DNA of 29,380 nt, from the NCBI GenBank assembly GCA_021158465.1, contig JAGGUN010000051.1, positions 1-29,380 of the forward strand, read 5' to 3'. Shown in pieces: positions 1,401-25,085 of the stretch. The DNA comes from a bacterium (GTDB lineage: Bacteria > UBP14 > UBA6098 > 4484-93). The notes beneath the pieces were generated by a model, which searched no databases, was not told the origin of the DNA, and saw only the letters and a list, made by a program, of their open reading frames with translations. The translations under genes and the position numbers were made by a program. Every line of letters starts with the position of its first letter. The stretch's first letter is position 1.

Positions 1401-2554
1401 TTGCGCAGTTTCCTGTATATCTTCGATGCTGGCACGACCCTCACTCCCCATTTCTTGAACAGTGGCAGAACATTTTTGAGGGCGGAAAGCGTTTCCTGCC
1501 TTGTGTGTCCGGTGATTATCTTATCGCCACCTTTTTCCCTAATATCGAGGATGAGTTTGATAAGCCTCGTCTCTGTGGCAAGGCTCGTGGATTCTGGGTA
1601 ATCGATGTAATGATACAATCTCAGTATTGGGAATCCGAGCGAGTCTGCTACCTCCTGCGCAACAGAGTATATTGTCGTTCTTGAGTCGACGAAGAAGCGA
1701 CCGCTGGTATGGACAGTCTCAAGCAGTGGCACCATAACCGATTTTTTCTGGGTTGCGAGTGAGCCCATATGGTTGTTCATCCCGACGGCAGCTGGCATAA
1801 GAGCAAATGCCGAATCTACCATACCAGCGACCTCATCCGGCTTCATATCGGCAGTTATAATGAACTCCCCTTCGTATTTTGCAGGTGGCTCCGGCTCCAT
1901 CGGCATATGCACGAGGAACTCCCTCCCTCGAATGAGCGAGAACGATTCTTCCCAGTGTTCGGAGTGCGGGATGACTGTCGGTGTTATATCGATTGGCAGG
2001 GCAAGGAACTGCTTCTCGACATCCAGCTCGCCTACGCCAAAATCGTCTATCAGAATGGCTACCTCGACGGTATCGAGTGGAATCGATGAGAGCCGTCTGA
2101 CATATATCCTGTGGAAGATCTTCCCGCTGTAGCCTATATCAAGCACAAGCGAGTTTCCTGAGGGCGTTTCTTTTGCGTCGATCAACTCGTAGTTTGCGTC
2201 GGTTATAAGCTCCACGAGCTTCTGGTTCACAAGCGGCAGCGGAAAGGCAGAAGGTATGTCCAGCTTGGTGTAGAAATATTCACTCCCGAATTCCGACTTG
2301 GTGTTACATCTCTTGTAGGAGCTTACCTTAGCAGAGAAGATATTCCTCATCCTGTCGAATATATCCTTGAGTGTAGGGTCGGTGAGCTGTATAATGTATC
2401 TTTCCTCAAAGCCAGATGTATCTTCGCTAACAGGAGATGTTTCCTTCTCTCTTCCGCGGGATATGAAGAAAACGAGGACAAGGAGGGCAAGCATTCCGAT
2501 GAGAACAGCAGGCAGGAGTACGTCCCGCCGTGAGGAGGTAGGTAGCTTTCTCAT
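1385..2554 (-). CDS. Divergent polysaccharide deacetylase family protein (YibQ-like), membrane-anchored
   Basis: 389 residues. One hydrophobic segment at about residues 13-33 should anchor the protein in the inner membrane with the rest in the periplasm. The C-terminal half carries the signature of the divergent polysaccharide deacetylase family (PF04748, E. coli YibQ): AILIDDFG, VHMPMEP, GMNNHMGS, FFVDSRTT and GHTRQETLSAL, in that order. Family members have a NodB-like fold, and several sit next to peptidoglycan-remodelling genes, but no substrate is established. The region before it (about residues 50-160) is unassigned. The ATG overlaps the stop of the lipoprotein gene in an ATGA, indicating translational coupling, and the 3' end overlaps tsaE. 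The aspartate pair in LIDDFG and the histidine in NNHMGS are intact, so activity is plausible but unproven. Confidence 0.88.
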   Translation of the reverse strand: MRKLPTSSRRDVLLPAVLIGMLALLVLVFFISRGREKETSPVSEDTSGFEERYIIQLTDPTLKDIFDRMRNIFSAKVSSYKRCNTKSEFGSEYFYTKLDIPSAFPLPLVNQKLVELITDANYELIDAKETPSGNSLVLDIGYSGKIFHRIYVRRLSSIPLDTVEVAILIDDFGVGELDVEKQFLALPIDITPTVIPHSEHWEESFSLIRGREFLVHMPMEPEPPAKYEGEFIITADMKPDEVAGMVDSAFALMPAAVGMNNHMGSLATQKKSVMVPLLETVHTSGRFFVDSRTTIYSVAQEVADSLGFPILRLYHYIDYPESTSLATETRLIKLILDIREKGGDKIITGHTRQETLSALKNVLPLFKKWGVRVVPASKIYRKLRKWNAS

Positions 2555-3087
2555 CTTATTGAGTTATCCTCCCAGAGAACAATTCTGTAAATCCCCTCTT
2601 CCTCTTTGAACTTGAATATTGCGTATCCTCTTGCCTCAGCATTGGAATAGACCCCGTCGTAATCAAACACCATAATGAGGAAATTGACATACCTAACCTC
2701 GAGGGTATCCCCATCTGATGGTTCGGCGAACGAGTCAGTAATGACCCAGCTTGAATCCTCAATTATTATCTCCTCGTATGCATCGAACAGTAGTCTCGTT
2801 CTCGTGAGTTCGCCTGGTTCTCCGCCCTCGTCGTAGAGCCCGTAGGACTCGTACCGGTTCGTTCTGTCATCGAAATAGCGGAAGCGGAAGTCCTCATCGA
2901 GGCAATCCCTGAAATGAGCGAGGTTCTTCTGGGTGTAGGCGAGCCGGAAATTTGCGATAACATTCTCAGGTGAGGTCTGCTCGAGGTAATTTAGACCTCC
3001 ACTGCCGCTTTTGTCCATCGGTGGAGCAAACGGGTTCATACAACTCACAAGAGAGAGGATCAACAGCAGGGAAGCAAGCCGCCTCAT
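2551..3087 (-). CDS. Predicted lipoprotein of unknown function
   Basis: 178 residues. The N-terminus has a lipoprotein signal peptide: MRRLASLLLILSLVSC, with cysteine 16 as the likely lipidated residue after LVS. The mature protein starts with a Pro/Gly/Ser-rich linker (about residues 18-32) and continues as a compact mixed domain. Its pattern, an amphipathic helix with ENVIANFRLAYTQKN, then LDEDFRFRYFDD, then several beta strands ending in YRIVLWEDN, resembles NTF2/SnoaL-like cone-fold proteins. That is a fold guess, not a recognised family. The gene is joined on both sides by 4-base ATGA overlaps, to the ferredoxin gene upstream and the deacetylase gene downstream, so it is co-translated with them. 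No function is assigned. Confidence 0.8.
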   Translation of the reverse strand: MRRLASLLLILSLVSCMNPFAPPMDKSGSGGLNYLEQTSPENVIANFRLAYTQKNLAHFRDCLDEDFRFRYFDDRTNRYESYGLYDEGGEPGELTRTRLLFDAYEEIIIEDSSWVITDSFAEPSDGDTLEVRYVNFLIMVFDYDGVYSNAEARGYAIFKFKEEEGIYRIVLWEDNSIR

Positions 3088-3590
3088 TTAACTATCTTCT
3101 CTTCGAATAGCTCAACGGCATCCACGGGGCAGGTCTTTTTACATTCTCCGCAGCCTATGCATTTCGTAGTATCCACTTTTATACTGCCGTCCCTATCGAC
3201 ATATATGGCGCCCGTCGGGCAGACAGGGATACAGCGTCGGCACCGGATGCATTTCTTCTGGTCTATCCGGGCAAAAACCTTTCCCTTTGCCTTTGTTGGC
3301 TCCGCCGCAACCTCCGTTGTGTCCGATGGTTCAGATTGTTCCACATAGATAGCATGCATCGGGCAGGCAGGGACGCATTTACCACATTTTATGCATTTTG
3401 CTGTGTCGATTACTGCTTTTCCTGTCGATGGGTCGATGCTGATGGCACCGACAGGGCATAATTCCTTGCAGATTCGACAGCCGATGCACCGCTTTGATTC
3501 AACCTTGTATATCTCCTGAGCTAAGGCGGGCAAGGATATGAGTATAGCAATCAGCGCTAATATCTCACAGGGGAAGCGTAACAACGACAT
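3084..3590 (-). CDS. Exported polyferredoxin with four 4Fe-4S cluster motifs
   Basis: 168 residues from the ATG at 3588-3590. That start has GGGAG upstream and creates a credible signal peptide (MSLLRFPCEILALIAILISL, then PALA before QE). An in-frame start at 3722 would add 44 polar residues lying entirely inside the kinase gene and hide the signal peptide. Four canonical CxxCxxCxxxCP motifs lie at residues 35-46, 66-77, 114-125 and 144-155: two two-cluster ferredoxin modules joined by an acidic Ser/Thr/Glu linker (about 85-103). It should carry electrons, probably outside the inner membrane or tethered to it. There is no twin-arginine motif, which is odd for a cluster-bearing exported protein. 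It overlaps the kinase gene by 26 bases and the lipoprotein gene by ATGA. No partner oxidoreductase is nearby. Confidence 0.88.
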   Translation of the reverse strand: MSLLRFPCEILALIAILISLPALAQEIYKVESKRCIGCRICKELCPVGAISIDPSTGKAVIDTAKCIKCGKCVPACPMHAIYVEQSEPSDTTEVAAEPTKAKGKVFARIDQKKCIRCRRCIPVCPTGAIYVDRDGSIKVDTTKCIGCGECKKTCPVDAVELFEEKIVK

Positions 3591-5364
3591 CCGTTCCGAC
3601 TCCCTTTTCGCTTGAGATTTGGAGGCTTCCGCCGTGCGCCTTGATGATGTTATCGGCGATTGTGAGCCCCAGTCCTGTCCCTTCGCCGATGTCCTTCGTA
3701 GTAAAGAACGGCTCTGTAGCACGCTGGCATATCTCGCTCAGCATACCGACACCTGTATCGGATACCTCAATGGAAACAGACCTTCTTCCAAGGAAAAATC
3801 TTATATTGATTTCTCCTTCTTTTCTTGTTGCCCAGACTGCATTGTCGAGGATGTTCTTCAACGCTACACTGGTAAGCTCCTCATCAACAAATACATCAGG
3901 CAGCTCCACTGAGTTATCGATGTGGATACGGGATAGCTCATCTGGGAAATTTTCTGTTACCACACTCTGCACAAGTTTCTGCAGATTCAGATGGGTTCTG
4001 GTTAGTGTGATCGGCTTGGAGAAAAGCATAAGGTCATCGATTATCTTTCTTGCCCGTCTTGCGTTCTGTAAAGCCACTTCGAGATTGTTTCTGGTCTCAT
4101 CGGAAAGCTTCTCCCTACTGATGGCAAGGTCAATATACCCCGTTATGACCCCAAGAGGCTTGTCCAACTCCCTCACTATACCAGATGCAAATCCACCGAG
4201 GGTTGCCAACCTCTCTGCTTGGGAAAGCTTCTGCTTTAGATGCTTTATTTCCGTTCTCTCTTTGGCATACACAACTATCCCGTAGAACCTCTCGTTGGCG
4301 TCATACAACGGGTAAGCCGTTAGCTCATATGCCCCCTTGAAATGTGGGAATGTTACCTCTTCGGTGAAGCTGGTCTTAAAGTTTCTACACCTGACAATTG
4401 CACTCGATTCTGGCGGTCTTGTTTTTCCCATAACCACTGAGAAAAAGTTTCTTCCGATAAGTTCCCTCGGGTGTGTCCCTACAAGTGCAGCAAGTCTTTT
4501 GTTGACCTTGCGGAAGTTGAAATTTTCATCGAGTATGCAGATGATATCGGATATATTGTCGAATGTTTGTTGCCACTCCTGTTTACTCTGGAAAACTATC
4601 TGGCTCAGGTTCTTCAGCTCGTTGAACCGGTCCTGCAGAGCCTTGTTGTAAAGCGATATCCTGTTGGTCATCTTGTTGAAGTTGCTGGCGAGTAGCCCAA
4701 ACTCATCATCACTACTCTCATCAAGACGGAAATTGAACTCCCCGTTAGCTACACGCTGAACCCCCTCGAGAAACTTACGCAGAGATGAGGTCAGCTCGGT
4801 AGAAACGGCTAATCCAAGAAGAACTGCTACAATTATCACAAACGCCAGAAAAACTCCTCCAATCAATGCCAAATACTTTCTCTCAACCCTTAGGAGACTG
4901 CTTGGGATAAGTCCAATGATTACATACTTACCACACTGGCAGTATGCAGCAAGCGGTGTTCCCCAGGTTCTCTTTGCCTTGTCTCTCGGTATAATTCCCA
5001 CTGGGGCAAGTTTATCTGTTCTCATAACGAAACTGGCAGGAAGCTCCGGTTCCTCGGCAGACATAGTTCCCGTCTTGCTGTAAAAAACCATCTTACAAAC
5101 ATCTTCTTCTGGCTTTGCCACCAGAAACAGCTCCCGCGTGAAACCCGTCGAGAAGAGACGGACTGCCGGTATGACATCGGACTCGGAGGGAGAACTGCCC
5201 AGCTGCTCATGTATTATCCTCATTACCGAGAGAAGGGTTGAGAGTTGCTGGTTCTCGCTTGATATTCTGGAGCTCCGCTCAATGAATACCAGAAACAATG
5301 CCACCGTTACAACGACCGTCAACACGAAATGGAACGCTACCTTCCGAGAAAACCTATACCGCAT
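3565..5364 (-). CDS. PAS-domain sensor histidine kinase homologue lacking the phospho-acceptor histidine
   Basis: 599 residues. Membrane segments at about 9-28 and 163-187 flank an extracytoplasmic sensor region. A HAMP domain follows (about 188-240), then a PAS domain (about 262-372), a DHp/HisKA region (about 380-447) and a HATPase_c domain (about 455-599). The ATP site is intact: N box NILDNAVWAT, G1 SDTGVGM, and GEGTGLGLTIA. The H box reads LGGFASGIVRELDKPLG, where kinases of this group have G[IV]AHE[IL]NNPL. Arg398 (codon AGG at 4171-4173) therefore replaces the histidine. The protein may be a pseudokinase, a dimerisation partner or a phosphatase-type regulator rather than a normal kinase. 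It is first in the operon behind a good promoter, with AAGGGA before the ATG. No response-regulator gene is in the window. Confidence 0.92.
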   Translation of the reverse strand: MRYRFSRKVAFHFVLTVVVTVALFLVFIERSSRISSENQQLSTLLSVMRIIHEQLGSSPSESDVIPAVRLFSTGFTRELFLVAKPEEDVCKMVFYSKTGTMSAEEPELPASFVMRTDKLAPVGIIPRDKAKRTWGTPLAAYCQCGKYVIIGLIPSSLLRVERKYLALIGGVFLAFVIIVAVLLGLAVSTELTSSLRKFLEGVQRVANGEFNFRLDESSDDEFGLLASNFNKMTNRISLYNKALQDRFNELKNLSQIVFQSKQEWQQTFDNISDIICILDENFNFRKVNKRLAALVGTHPRELIGRNFFSVVMGKTRPPESSAIVRCRNFKTSFTEEVTFPHFKGAYELTAYPLYDANERFYGIVVYAKERTEIKHLKQKLSQAERLATLGGFASGIVRELDKPLGVITGYIDLAISREKLSDETRNNLEVALQNARRARKIIDDLMLFSKPITLTRTHLNLQKLVQSVVTENFPDELSRIHIDNSVELPDVFVDEELTSVALKNILDNAVWATRKEGEINIRFFLGRRSVSIEVSDTGVGMLSEICQRATEPFFTTKDIGEGTGLGLTIADNIIKAHGGSLQISSEKGVGTDVVVTLPL

Positions 5365-5396: not shown

Positions 5397-5425
5397 AATC
5401 TATTATAGAATGGTGGATTTGTCAA
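5397..5425 (-). promoter_or_regulatory. Sigma70-type promoter of the kinase-tsaE operon
   Basis: Reading the minus strand, a perfect -35 TTGACA (5420-5425) is followed after 17 bases by TAGATT (5397-5402), which keeps the three most conserved -10 bases. Transcription would start near 5390, giving a leader of about 26 bases that holds the AAGGGA Shine-Dalgarno site of the kinase gene. Confidence 0.65.
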
Positions 5426-5440
5426 GAGTTAAAAATAGGT

Positions 5441-5469
5441 TTGACAAGGCAAGGAGAAAGGTATATATT
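5441..5469 (+). promoter_or_regulatory. Sigma70-type promoter of the subtilase gene
   Basis: A perfect -35 TTGACA at 5441-5446, a 17-base spacer and TATATT at 5464-5469. The start site would fall near 5476, about 17 bases before the ATG, leaving room for the AGGAGGG Shine-Dalgarno site. The -35 boxes of this promoter and of the kinase promoter are separated by 15 bases, a back-to-back divergent pair. Confidence 0.75.
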
Positions 5470-10653: not shown

Positions 10654-11556
10654 CTACCTCCTTTCGTTGGCTTCTACGATAGCTGCGAGTGCGATGGAAT
10701 TGAGTTTTGTTTCAGCAGAATCAGAACGGGAGAGAAGCACAATCGGTGATTGTGCTCCAAGTATCAGGCCGCCCGTCTTAATATTTGAGAGATAGATAAG
10801 CGCCTTAACACAGGCGTTTACAACAACTATATCGTGAGCAAGGAATATATCGACATCGCCGGCAACAGGAGATTTTACGCCTTTTATCTCTGCTGCCCTC
10901 TTCGAGAGAGCGATGTCCATCGCTAATGGACCGTCAAAGATGACATTTCCAAGCTGTCCCCTTTCCGCCATACGGGAGATGAGAGCAGCATCCATAGTCT
11001 CTTCCATCTTAGGATTTACCGTCTCCACCACGGCAAGTCCACAGACCTTTGGTGTTTCAATTCCGAGACATCTGGCGTAGGATACTGCATTCTTGAGGAT
11101 ATTTATCTTCTCATCGAGGGTTGGGCGTATGTTCACCCCACCATCTGTGAAGAGCATAAGCTTGTGATATGCCGGCGATTCCACCACGGCGATGTGCGAT
11201 AGCAGTTTCCCAGTGCGGATACCGTTTTCCTTGTCGAGCACCGCCTTCATAAGGACACCTGTGGGGATTTTGCCCTTCATCAAAAGCCCTGCTTCCCTAC
11301 GACGGACAAGAGAGACAGAGAGAGCTGCTATTTTGCTGGGTTCTTTTTCATCCACCAGTTCGTATCGAGAGAGTCCTGTTTCCTCGATAATGGGTAGTAT
11401 TTTCTCCTTATCGCCGACAAGTACTGGAGAGACAATATCTTCTGCTTGGGCAAGCGCTCTCAGGGTTTCTGTGCTTGCAGCATCCGCTACAGCGATCTTC
11501 TTTGGGTGGTCGGCTTCTCTCGCCTTATTTAGCACCTGCTCAAAACTTGTAAGCAT
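10654..11556 (-). CDS. ptb: Phosphate butyryltransferase family protein (paralogue 2)
   Basis: 300 residues of the phosphate acetyl/butyryltransferase family (PF01515), which exchanges CoA and phosphate on short acyl groups in the cytoplasm. Recognisable blocks include GLLMKGKIPTGVLMKAVLD, LSHIAVVESPAYHKLMLFTD, VNPKM, FDGPLAMDIA, KSPVAGDVD and a late SRSDSAETKLNSIALA. The length fits the Ptb subfamily rather than long Pta enzymes. CGAGGAGGAAACCG precedes the ATG, a strong Shine-Dalgarno site. It follows its paralogue with an 18-base gap and is clearly related to it along the whole length. No butyrate kinase gene is in the window. The paralogues differ in substrate-pocket segments, so acyl specificity cannot be read from sequence; a non-catalytic subunit role for one copy is possible. 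Confidence 0.88.
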   Translation of the reverse strand: MLTSFEQVLNKAREADHPKKIAVADAASTETLRALAQAEDIVSPVLVGDKEKILPIIEETGLSRYELVDEKEPSKIAALSVSLVRRREAGLLMKGKIPTGVLMKAVLDKENGIRTGKLLSHIAVVESPAYHKLMLFTDGGVNIRPTLDEKINILKNAVSYARCLGIETPKVCGLAVVETVNPKMEETMDAALISRMAERGQLGNVIFDGPLAMDIALSKRAAEIKGVKSPVAGDVDIFLAHDIVVVNACVKALIYLSNIKTGGLILGAQSPIVLLSRSDSAETKLNSIALAAIVEANERR

Positions 11557-11574
11557 CGGTTTCCTCCTCGATGG

Positions 11575-12480
11575 CTACGCGTTCAGTGCAGCTAAGGTGA
11601 TCGACAGGAATTTTGACTCATCGGTGTCCGCTCGTGAGGTAAGAACGCATGGTGCAGTAGCCCCTGTGACCACAGCAGCGAGACGCCCCCCAGCAAGGTG
11701 AACCAGTGTCTTATACACCGCATTTGCACTCTCTATGCAAGGGAAAACGAGCACATCCGCATCCCCGGCGACCTCACTTTTCACCCCCTTTATCTTGACA
11801 CTTTCCATAGAAACAGCGAGGTCAAGAGCGAGCGGACCATCGATTATTGCCCCCTTTATCTGTCCGCGCTGGTTCATCTTAGCAATCAGTGCGCAATCAA
11901 GGGTCGACGGCATCTTGGGGTTTACCTTCTCCACCGCAGAAAGCATTGCAATCTTTGGAAGCTCAATTCCGAGCGAGTGCGCGACATCGATGCAATATTG
12001 GACCATCTTTATCTTCTGCTCGAGTGTGGGCTTGATTATAACAGCAACATCGGATAAGAGAAGTAGCTTGTGATATGTTGGCACCTCGACAACCGTAACA
12101 TGTGAGAGCACCTCTTTTGGAGGGAGCAGCCCCCTTTCCTTGTCGAGGATGCCCTTCATATAGTTTGCGGATGAGCACAGCCCTTTCATCAGGATGTCCG
12201 CCTCACCTGAGCGCACCATACGGACGGACTCGGCTATCGCTTCCTTTTCGTTTGGTATGTTGATAATACTCAATATCGACGGGTCGACATTATGCTCAAC
12301 CGCAACCTTCTTTATGCTCTCCTTGTCCCCCGTAAGGTATGCATCGACTATCCCTTCCTTCACTGCCCTTCCGACCGCCTCGATAGTATGAGGGTCCTGT
12401 CCATATGCCACAGCAAGCCTCTTTTTTCCCTTAGATTTTGCTGCGTCAATTAACTGGTCAAGGTGTCTTACAGGTTTCAT
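11575..12480 (-). CDS. ptb: Phosphate butyryltransferase family protein (paralogue 1)
   Basis: 301 residues, same family and full-length domain as the next gene. Blocks include ADILMKGLCSSANYMKGILD, LSHVTVVEVPTYHKLLLLSD, VNPKM, IDGPLALDLA, KSEVAGDADVLVFP and TSRADTDESKFLSITLAA. Expected reaction: acyl-CoA plus phosphate to acyl-phosphate plus CoA, which with an acyl kinase makes ATP from butyryl- or branched-chain acyl-CoA. The ATG is preceded by GGGAGGGAG and lies inside the end of the AlbA_2 gene (23-base overlap), so the two are translated together. This copy matches the usual Ptb pattern somewhat better (for example GATAPCVLTSRAD near the C-terminus) than its downstream partner. No acyl kinase is nearby. 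Confidence 0.9.
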   Translation of the reverse strand: MKPVRHLDQLIDAAKSKGKKRLAVAYGQDPHTIEAVGRAVKEGIVDAYLTGDKESIKKVAVEHNVDPSILSIINIPNEKEAIAESVRMVRSGEADILMKGLCSSANYMKGILDKERGLLPPKEVLSHVTVVEVPTYHKLLLLSDVAVIIKPTLEQKIKMVQYCIDVAHSLGIELPKIAMLSAVEKVNPKMPSTLDCALIAKMNQRGQIKGAIIDGPLALDLAVSMESVKIKGVKSEVAGDADVLVFPCIESANAVYKTLVHLAGGRLAAVVTGATAPCVLTSRADTDESKFLSITLAALNA

Positions 12481-21781: not shown

Positions 21782-23548
21782 TTAGAAGGTTAGGGTGTAT
21801 ATCAATTGGAAGAAGCCAGGGTTAAGGGTTCTGCCCGAGATGGCAAACCTTTCCAGTTGATACTCGCCTGAAGCGGAAATGCTCCAGTTTCTATCTCCCT
21901 TTAGCTCTATGTTCGAGAAGATTGCCTTTTTCGTTCGTTCTTCCTTTTTTTCTTTACCAGTTCCCCAATCCCATTCATCCTCACGATGCCACAAGCATCC
22001 TATCGTTGGACGGAACGATGAGAAATTCCATTGCAACTCAACGCGGACACTCCAGCCTCTTCTCTCCCAAGAGAGAGCCTCAACCCACTGTTCCCGCCAT
22101 ATAAGCCCGCCATAGTCCTCGTATATATTCGAAAGTTCGAGATGATATAAAAAATTCCCTCTCGTGTATTCCGTTCGAAGTTCATATGAGCGTCTACGGA
22201 ATATCTTGTTTCTCGATTCAGTGTCCCTCCTTCCATAGTCGTAGATTATATGATTAGCCCGTATCGGCGCCGACGCACAAAAATTTAAGCAGTCCTTAAC
22301 TCTAAGTTCCACTGATGGAACAAGCAGATACGAGTTGTTCCAATTGCTCTCACCAGAGAGTGTAAGGAGATAAACGGAATGTGTTTTCCTAACGATATAG
22401 TCGATCCCAGAGACAAGGAACGGCAGAAGCAATCGATGATAGCTTGCCTTGAGGATCTGGCTTTGAATGTCTCGAGAAAGTGAGCGAGAGGAGTCCAAAT
22501 TATCATCGGTCCGCTCAAGCGACAGGCTCGCCTCAAGCACCAATGTATCGCTCGGAAAGTGTATAACAGCTCCTCCATAAACTGCACCCCACTCCTTGTT
22601 CATATCTCTGGTATCATCGGTATAATCCTCACTTATACTATATGTCCCATAACCCGTCTTCAGGTCAAGGAAATTGAGGAAAGATCTTGAAACCCCTGTT
22701 CCCAATCTTATCATCTTGTAACAGTTGGAATTACCTTCCAGCGCAACCAGGCGAGCAGAATCAGCGTCGGATGAGGAATAGCGTTTCCTGTTCAAACCCA
22801 TCGAGAGTGAACAGGTAAGCATACAGGAAAGAGGTAGTCTGACCTTGTTGATAGAAAAGATGTTACCGCTCCACTCTTCTCTTCTGTCCACCTCGTATCC
22901 GGAGGGCAATTCGTTAAAGTATCCGACCTGTCTGCCCTCTCCTTTCATATCAAACGAGATATCCCAGAATGCAAAAGGTGAATGCGATCCTTTAAGATGC
23001 ACAAGAAGGAAGCTTTCTGGTGTCTTCGGAGAGAAGTCATACTGTCCTTCAAGGCTTGCCCGATCAAAGATGAAAAACGGCTTGACCGAGGAGATTTTTT
23101 CACCAACGATGCAGGCAGGCTCGAAGCTGCTGTCAGCGAAGTTCACACGGAGGTTGCCTCGCAGAGCAACACTCGAATTTGTATGCAGAACGCCCCAGAG
23201 TGTCCTCTCATAAAACGGACCAAAAGCAAACTTACGAACACCGCTCCCAGCCTCGAGATTGTTATCTATCTCAAACAAGACCCCAAAACCTCTGTGGGAA
23301 AATTCAAGCGAACCGATACCCCTCTCCCTATTAACAGAACCAGACCCCACAAGCGAGGGGCGCTGGGAAAGAAGCTGGTTGAAACTCACCCGCAGGTTCT
23401 TCCCAGACAAAAAAAGTGTATGCCTCAAGGAAAAGCTCGTGTTGTCATAACTGTATCCGACAGAATACCCTCCACAAACATCAGAAATCCAGAGGAAAGG
23501 GAGCAGAATGATTAAAATTTTATACACTAATCTTTTCATATACAACAT
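21782..23548 (-). CDS. Predicted outer-membrane beta-barrel protein, unknown function
   Basis: 588 residues from the ATG at 23546-23548, which has CAGG 7 bases upstream. An ATG three codons later and a TTG at 23563 are alternatives. A signal peptide (hydrophobic core LVYKILIILLPFLWI) is followed by VCGGYSVGYSYDN. The whole mature chain is made of alternating hydrophobic/aromatic strands with charged loops (for example ISFDMKGEGRQVGYF, LRTEYTRGNFLYHLEL, VRVELQWNFSSF). It ends in LIYTLTF, a typical C-terminal beta-signal with terminal phenylalanine for insertion by the BAM complex. A large 24-30-strand barrel would fit the length. No named family is recognised. The 5' end overlaps the TatD-RsmA gene (29 bases with this start), so the two form an operon. 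Confidence 0.8.
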   Translation of the reverse strand: MLYMKRLVYKILIILLPFLWISDVCGGYSVGYSYDNTSFSLRHTLFLSGKNLRVSFNQLLSQRPSLVGSGSVNRERGIGSLEFSHRGFGVLFEIDNNLEAGSGVRKFAFGPFYERTLWGVLHTNSSVALRGNLRVNFADSSFEPACIVGEKISSVKPFFIFDRASLEGQYDFSPKTPESFLLVHLKGSHSPFAFWDISFDMKGEGRQVGYFNELPSGYEVDRREEWSGNIFSINKVRLPLSCMLTCSLSMGLNRKRYSSSDADSARLVALEGNSNCYKMIRLGTGVSRSFLNFLDLKTGYGTYSISEDYTDDTRDMNKEWGAVYGGAVIHFPSDTLVLEASLSLERTDDNLDSSRSLSRDIQSQILKASYHRLLLPFLVSGIDYIVRKTHSVYLLTLSGESNWNNSYLLVPSVELRVKDCLNFCASAPIRANHIIYDYGRRDTESRNKIFRRRSYELRTEYTRGNFLYHLELSNIYEDYGGLIWREQWVEALSWERRGWSVRVELQWNFSSFRPTIGCLWHREDEWDWGTGKEKKEERTKKAIFSNIELKGDRNWSISASGEYQLERFAISGRTLNPGFFQLIYTLTF

Positions 23549-25085
23549 TTGCCAGCCTGCCAAAGTCCTCGGGAGAGATGGTCTCTGCCCGGATATCCTC
23601 AGGGAAAGAAAGCTCTCTCATCGCCAGAGAAACAGCCTCAGACGGAATATCGCTTGAAAGCGCCACTGAGTTTATCAATTTTTTCCTCCTCTTTGCGAAG
23701 GACAGCTTGACAAATTTTATGAAGAATTCCTCATTTGTCAGCTGGGCTACAGGGGGCTTTTTCTCAAAGAGCAGAACCGTTGATGTTACTTTCGGTCGGG
23801 GGATAAAACACTCTGGCGGGAGGTTCATAATCCGGGAAATCTTAAAGAAAAACTGAAGAAGCACCGAAAGGAAGCCATAGTTTTTTGTCCTTGGTAAAGC
23901 GAGGAGCCGGTCTGCTACCTCTTTTTGCACCATAAGAGCAGTTCTGCGGATAAATCTCCTCTCAGAGATAATCTTGAAGAGTATGGACGATGTGATATTG
24001 TACGGTATATTGCCGACGACGACGAGCCTTTCGCCAAGATCCGACAGGGAGATGTTCAGGAAATCCTCGTTTATAATCTCGAGGTTCGGAATATTCTTTT
24101 CAGAAAGCAGGATTGCCAGGTTCTTGTCTATCTCAACAGCTATTACCCTGCCTGCTTTCTCGCACAGGAAACGGGTAAGCATTCCCCTTCCCGAGCCTAC
24201 CTCCACGACGGTATCGTTCCGGTTTATCTGAACAGCTCTTGCTATCTTCCTTGCGACATTCTCATCGACGAGGAAGTTCTGCCCGAGCGATCTTCTCGGG
24301 CGAACGGGGGATACAACCGTCGGCTTCTCGATTCCGAAGAATCTACACCCGTTGTTCGTGGTTAACTTCTCCACATAAGAGAGAGGCTCCTTCCAGATAG
24401 CTGCAAGCCGACAAGCAACATTCCTCAAAAGTGCAGGTCTATTGAGAGCCCCTCTGAACGGGTGCGGAGTAAGATACGGCGAATCTGTTTCAAGCAGGAT
24501 CTTTTTACGGTCTGCAAGGCGGGCAATCTCTGCCCTATCCGTCCCGGGGTATGTAAGTGTCCCGTTGAACGAGACAAAGAACCCCATATCCATCGCCAAG
24601 GCAAGAGCTTTCTTGTCCCCAGAGAATGAGTGAAGAAGAACTGGAAGCTCCAATGCGAACGGCTTGAGTATTGAAAAGGCATCAGAAAAGGCATCTCTTA
24701 TATGTACAATTACAGGCAGCCCGAGCCGTTTAGCTATCTCAAGCTGACTACGGAAAACCTCCCTTTGAACATTCTGCGGAGAAACATTCCGATAGTAGTC
24801 GAGCCCTATTTCCCCTATCGCAACGACCTTGTCAAGCGATGCAAGACGCTCTATCTCGGCAAAGGATTCATCCGTTGCCTCTTTTGCCTCATGTGGGTGG
24901 ATGCCAACAGCTGCATATATCTGGGGATAGAGAGTTGCGAGCTTGTAGGCTCTCCTGCTCGACGCGACATCTATCCCTGGGTTCACGATAAGATGAACGC
25001 CAGAGGAGATTGCCTCATCGATTACATCCTTTCTTACCCCGTCAAACTGGGGAAAATCAAGATGCGCGTGTGTGTCGAAAAGCAT
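23520..25085 (-). CDS. rsmA: TatD-family hydrolase fused to RsmA 16S rRNA dimethyladenosine transferase
   Basis: 521 residues in one uninterrupted frame. Residues 1-253 form a complete TatD-type metal-dependent nuclease: HAHLDF with His6/His8, GEIGLDYYR (Glu92), VIVHIRDA (His128), LLHSFSG (His152) and ETDSPYLTPHPFRG (Asp201). A 10-residue linker follows. Residues 264-521 form a complete RsmA/KsgA: RRSLGQNFLVDENVARKI, VEVGSGRGMLT, AVEID, catalytic NIPYNIT and FIPRPKVTS. RsmA dimethylates two adjacent adenines near the 3' end of 16S rRNA; TatD enzymes are 3'-5' nucleases. The two genes are neighbours in many genomes, but a fusion is unusual. The ATG is exactly at the predicted transcription start and no Shine-Dalgarno site is suitably placed. 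Confidence 0.93.
   Translation of the reverse strand: MLFDTHAHLDFPQFDGVRKDVIDEAISSGVHLIVNPGIDVASSRRAYKLATLYPQIYAAVGIHPHEAKEATDESFAEIERLASLDKVVAIGEIGLDYYRNVSPQNVQREVFRSQLEIAKRLGLPVIVHIRDAFSDAFSILKPFALELPVLLHSFSGDKKALALAMDMGFFVSFNGTLTYPGTDRAEIARLADRKKILLETDSPYLTPHPFRGALNRPALLRNVACRLAAIWKEPLSYVEKLTTNNGCRFFGIEKPTVVSPVRPRRSLGQNFLVDENVARKIARAVQINRNDTVVEVGSGRGMLTRFLCEKAGRVIAVEIDKNLAILLSEKNIPNLEIINEDFLNISLSDLGERLVVVGNIPYNITSSILFKIISERRFIRRTALMVQKEVADRLLALPRTKNYGFLSVLLQFFFKISRIMNLPPECFIPRPKVTSTVLLFEKKPPVAQLTNEEFFIKFVKLSFAKRRKKLINSVALSSDIPSEAVSLAMRELSFPEDIRAETISPEDFGRLANVVYEKISV

Follow-up and report, generated by a model that had tools for sequence, protein, structure and literature searches.

The window analysed here, which is the whole stretch of 29,380 nt, carries on its reverse strand a gene whose product combines, from the N-terminus onwards, a transmembrane helix, an extracytoplasmic sensor region, a second transmembrane helix, a HAMP domain, a PAS domain, a HisKA domain and an HATPase_c domain (Table 1). 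The HAMP, PAS_4, HisKA and HATPase_c matches all lie above the Pfam cut-offs (26.9 bits for PF00512 and 26.4 bits for PF02518). Judged by sequence, the core is of the AtoS/ZraS type, the best NCBIfam model being AtoS (NF008468; 217.3 bits, E=3.4e-64), although this score falls short of the curated cut-off of 646 bits and leaves the protein outside the AtoS equivalog. Regarding the sensor region, its pLDDT is mostly <50 in two AlphaFold models, so that its fold is left unnamed; the order of strands and helices in the models only vaguely suggests a Cache/PDC-like domain.

Table 1. Features of the pseudo-histidine kinase locus, in coordinates of the window.
Feature	Position	Strand	Basis
Pseudo-histidine kinase gene, 599 aa	3565..5364	-	Open frame; Pfam matches; orthologous gene in G001, another species of the genus
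Extracytoplasmic sensor region, residues 31-162, flanked by two hydrophobic helices, without assigned family	4879..5274	-	
HAMP domain, residues 191-236	4657..4794	-	Pfam PF00672, E=3.6e-10
PAS domain (PAS_4), residues 268-372	4249..4563	-	Pfam PF08448, E=4.7e-11
HisKA (DHp) domain, residues 390-450	4015..4197	-	Pfam PF00512, 40.2 bits
Arg398 (AGG), at the phospho-accepting His position	4171..4173	-	Alignments
Lys402 at +4, where the HisKA phosphatase motif has Asn/Thr	4159..4161	-	Alignment; role of the position from PMC3510030
HATPase_c (CA) domain, residues 499-599	3568..3870	-	Pfam PF02518, E=8.2e-21, 75 bits
ATP boxes within HATPase_c	N 3829-3867; G1 3742-3768; F/lid/G2 3640-3717	-	Conserved columns
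Sigma-70-like promoter TTGACA-17-TAGATT, upstream of the kinase gene	5397..5425	-	Conserved in the second species (G001)
Ferredoxin, four Cys clusters, leader resembling a Sec signal peptide	3084..3590	-	ATG start at 3590 inferred
Putative lipoprotein, lipobox-like LVSC, without family	2551..3087	-	

The kinase gene is followed by the ferredoxin gene, the putative lipoprotein gene and a polysaccharide deacetylase family gene, in that order, and the ferredoxin, if begun at the inferred ATG, overlaps the end of the kinase gene by 26 nt. This overlap and the gene order suggest an operon, which the kinase and the ferredoxin likely share as read in their own genome, the contig of the other species of the genus (G001) ending inside the kinase gene. 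Export of a ferredoxin that has no twin-arginine motif would be out of the ordinary. Related ferredoxins that look exported can be found in four other genomes of the class (G006, G007, G008 and G009), where they adjoin other genes and not such a kinase, so that any redox connection of the ferredoxin with the kinase is just a guess. On its other side, the kinase gene is adjoined in both species by a divergent protease gene (protease 86% identical), and divergent sigma-70-like promoters lie between the two genes at 5397-5469, with TTGACA-17-TATATT on the forward strand and TTGACA-17-TAGATT on the reverse strand. Elsewhere in the window, a single reverse-strand ORF (23520-25085) fuses a TatD-type DNase (residues 3-251) with an RsmA/KsgA-type rRNA dimethylase (residues 264-513), and two PTA_PTB-family (phosphate acetyl/butyryl transferase) genes can be found side by side at 10654-12480, also on the reverse strand.

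The H box of the HisKA domain, ASGIVRELDKPLG, comprises residues 393-405 (nt 4150-4188). The initial annotation had it slightly displaced, at 4165-4204, with the codon of Arg398 correctly positioned, and its main claim, that Arg stands in place of the phospho-accepting His, is borne out. In HMM and pairwise alignments, Arg398 is the gap-free match to the phospho-His of Pfam HisKA, of KinB (3d36) and of ZraS (9jfj), the residue that a canonical HisKA domain requires in its H box. The acceptor column holds His in 105 of 108 aligned related cores, which is not an unbiased rate because these relatives were picked by similarity to the protein itself; a census of HisKA domains across the class, given below, comes closer to one. 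The three cores lacking His are those of the kinase, of its G001 orthologue and of one paralogue in its own genome. A shifted alignment exposing a His nearby was rejected, as comparison of both species found none within residues 376-457, a stretch that includes all of the DHp domain and thus leaves no shifted acceptor in it. The nearest His common to the two species is His375, located 23 residues N-terminal of Arg398 in the PAS-DHp linker. Autophosphorylation on this or another residue (Ser, Thr or Tyr), driving a regulator, would fit the intact ATP site and the conservation of His375 in both species. However, His375 lies about 35 A from the acceptor position along the helix by geometry, we know of no HisKA kinase using an acceptor site that far off, and such a replacement acceptor is very unlikely.

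The codon AGG differs from CAT and CAC at all three positions, where the initial annotation had counted two or three base changes and argued against a single read error. Since a change from His to Arg can begin as one A-to-G change (CAY to CGY) and continue by silent drift, the codon distance is a sign of age and not of multiple amino acid steps. The G001 orthologue, the only close one found, is 86% identical over 591 aa and carries the same AGG/Arg398 where a His would have pointed to a local mutation. Over the whole gene, dN is 0.068 and dS 0.635 (ratio 0.108), and the 27 codons around Arg398 (386-412) display nine synonymous differences, while residues 386-410 are without any amino acid change. 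The gene is kept by purifying selection in two species and, with two orthologues in all, its maintenance is shown across one divergence.

Beyond the genus, the sensor half has no relative among 386 genomes, where the HAMP region alone finds matches, nor in the viral contigs searched. Core-level matches can be found in 13 of the 17 genomes of the class, with His in every match from outside the genus, and in the other genera of the class such core matches were obtained and no orthologues. The core tree unites the two orthologues (100/100) at the end of a long stem of 2.9 changes per column and supports no sister group for them, so that no ancestral gene could be named. This stem is consistent with faster change once the usual constraints were lost, although long stems have other causes too. 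Both the restriction to one genus and the long stem might be taken as signs of a local mutation, an assembly error or a decaying pseudogene. Against this, the AGG codon is shared with an independent genome of another species, which refutes an assembly or read error and, together with a dN/dS of about 0.11, indicates that the gene is not decaying; moreover, the frame is intact, and the promoter-like site and the synteny with the divergent protease gene are conserved. An artefact or a gene in decay is therefore hardly credible.

HisKA proteins divide their two activities between two residues, the acidic one next to the His being used for kinase activity and the Asn or Thr at +4 for phosphatase activity (Willett and Kirby, PMC3510030; PMC11502775). 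In CrdS, the counterpart of Glu399 is needed for kinase activity alone, and CrdS, HK853 and others no longer act as phosphatases once the +4 Asn/Thr is lost (PMC3510030). Here, the acidic residue is retained as Glu399, and the +4 position is occupied by Lys402 in both species as against Asn or Thr in 100 of the 108 relatives, the stretch reading E399-L-D-K402 where the canonical motif after the His is E/DxxT/N. This loss of the phosphatase residue is new with respect to the initial annotation and speaks against the phosphatase that it had listed as one option. A sensor working solely as a phosphatase, stripping phosphate from a regulator, is conceivable insofar as HisKA phosphatase activity is in principle independent of the His, but Lys402 in place of the Asn or Thr makes this role unlikely, and we attach very little probability to it.

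In contrast to the H box, the N, G1, F and G2 boxes required for ATP binding are all present; the open frame and the intact N, G1 and G2 boxes thus agree with the initial annotation, to which the F box can be added. By definition, this protein retains every ATP-site column that does not vary across the 34 kinases aligned. Between the two species, no residue differs in the G1 box or the F/lid/G2 stretch and the N box differs by a single conservative change, whereas 12 of the 38 residues of the DHp-CA linker have changed; the dN/dS of the HATPase part is 0.086, compared with 0.108 for the whole gene. Because the ATP site is so strictly conserved, the main rival to a purely binding protein is a kinase acting in trans, in which the CA domain would phosphorylate the His of another, His-bearing kinase within a mixed dimer. 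The retained Glu399 points the same way, and four His-bearing kinases of the genome without a neighbouring receiver match (C24, C31, C11 and C48:39466) would be possible partners. Kinase heterodimers usually pair closer relatives, however, and the protein has no close paralogue, its best match in its own genome being about 33% identical and confined to the core. A kinase sharing the sensor domain, the partner envisaged initially, was searched for in the same genome and not found. Action in trans is on these grounds unlikely, though clearly the strongest of the alternatives.

The protein shares with AtoS/ZraS-type (NtrB-like) kinases the order extracytoplasmic sensor, HAMP/PAS, HisKA and HATPase_c, and ZraS is among its best structural matches. 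Unlike these kinases, it has no phospho-His, no phosphatase Asn/Thr and no adjacent sigma-54 regulator, and it scores far under the AtoS cut-off. In residue pattern, the closest tested precedent is DivL, in which Tyr replaces the His and the other boxes are kept; it is inactive both as kinase and as phosphatase, and binds DivK specifically in its phosphorylated form, DivK~P (PMC4211667). DivL likewise has a PAS domain ahead of its DHp/CA core and is a retained pseudo-histidine kinase of the binding type. It differs in having Tyr and not Arg, in being conserved across alphaproteobacteria and not in one genus, and in being reported as weak at ATP binding, whereas the ATP boxes are strictly conserved here. 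Its structure (4q20) is one of hundreds of Foldseek matches, outranked by ZraS, ThkA and many active kinases, and is not among the sequence matches at E<=1e-10. NifL of the Azotobacter type was matched both by sequence (9qq6, E=5.6e-12) and by fold, and also combines PAS with a kinase-like DHp/GHKL core; it is a nucleotide-binding protein and acts on NifA through contact with the AAA+ domain, no phosphoryl group being transferred (PMC9866876, PMC12998174). NifL nevertheless keeps a conserved His (PMC9866876), and it has two PAS domains, no described HAMP domain and NifA as partner, compared with one PAS, a HAMP domain and two transmembrane helices here, where the neighbouring genes code for the ferredoxin, lipoprotein, deacetylase and protease and not for an activator. 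By the features tested, the protein falls outside both the DivL and the NifL family. RetS and a pseudokinase variant of ChrS also work by contact with another kinase (PMC5992135, PMC9491836), but RetS is itself a phosphatase with its HExxT phosphatase motif retained, and the ChrS variant has lost its CA domain and not the His.

At the level of the sequence, the presence of HisKA and HATPase_c above cut-off and the absence of the acceptor His, also in the orthologue, confirm a conserved, genus-restricted pseudo-histidine kinase, which joins a known and thinly studied kind. This agrees with the initial proposal of a retained pseudokinase or dimerisation partner with an intact ATP site and no autophosphorylation at the usual His. 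We infer ATP binding, dimerisation, the absence of activity and a mechanism of binding to a partner, and we lean towards a membrane-anchored pseudo-histidine kinase that signals by nucleotide- and signal-dependent binding to another two-component protein. The extracytoplasmic sensor and the PAS domain would alter the coiled-coil HAMP/DHp/CA core, which would still dimerise and still bind ATP or ADP, with no autophosphorylation at the usual site owing to Arg398 and no usual dephosphorylation of a regulator owing to Lys402. Sensor, HAMP and PAS would thereby mould a DHp/CA surface for contact with another signalling protein, which may be a genuine kinase, as CckA is for DivL, or a receiver/sigma-54 activator, as NifA is for NifL, encoded elsewhere. 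Some points weigh against a purely binding protein: the strictly conserved ATP boxes, in contrast to the poor ATP binding of DivL, also fit a protein that uses ATP catalytically, and Glu399 is retained. The receiver search of the genome, which yielded 19 matches beside 15 HisKA and 15 HATPase_c matches, found no receiver domain within the window, and there is no adjacent response regulator. Candidate partners do exist among the orphan kinases named above and among four NtrC-type regulators without a neighbouring kinase match (C41:90215, C4:71113, C15:35147 and C11:79438), none of them being singled out.

Other HisKA proteins without the acceptor His can be found in the class. In the 2-Mb genome of the kinase they amount to 3 of 15 HisKA matches, compared with 3 of 76 matches when six genomes from other genera of the class are taken together (Fisher p=0.054), the three cases being common to both genomes of the genus by descent; this borderline difference is suggestive of a lineage that tends to repurpose HisKA proteins, without establishing it. 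The second case in the genome (C10:22187-22360, in the gene C10:21197-22831) has Leu for His and Ala for Glu and has lost lid/G2 residues; full-length orthologues occur in 13 of the 17 genomes of the class, the 11 outside the genus all having the His (HE[LIV]NNPL) and the two within it lacking it. That gene is followed by a receiver-HD-GYP-like gene, the receiver of which keeps its Asp. The third (C7:18974-19120, in the gene C7:18371-19186) is a GAF-HisKA-like protein with no HATPase_c match, confined to the genus within the class, with Arg at the acceptor position in the same genome and Asn in G001. Further HisKA domains in the class have Leu (G004:C22:26838-26993 and G004:C23:84838-84987) or Asn (G003:C63:32985-33191) at the acceptor position. 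On the regulator side, an NtrC-type regulator of the genome (C34:11194-11517) reads FVGSKLPDG at the phospho-accepting Asp site of its receiver, which is thus a pseudo-receiver.

A wider and decidedly speculative reading would make the protein a fully ATP-competent, genus-specific pseudo-kinase that has lost acceptor and phosphatase residue alike and that an orphan kinase or a sigma-54 regulator uses as its nucleotide-gated membrane anchor or as a trans-kinase, in a lineage where several sensor kinases may have turned into non-phosphorylating scaffolds. Few pseudo-histidine kinases have been characterised so far, and by combining an intact ATP pocket with the loss of both the acceptor and the phosphatase residue, this one would offer a clean test of whether a CA domain can act as an allosteric nucleotide sensor or as a trans-kinase.
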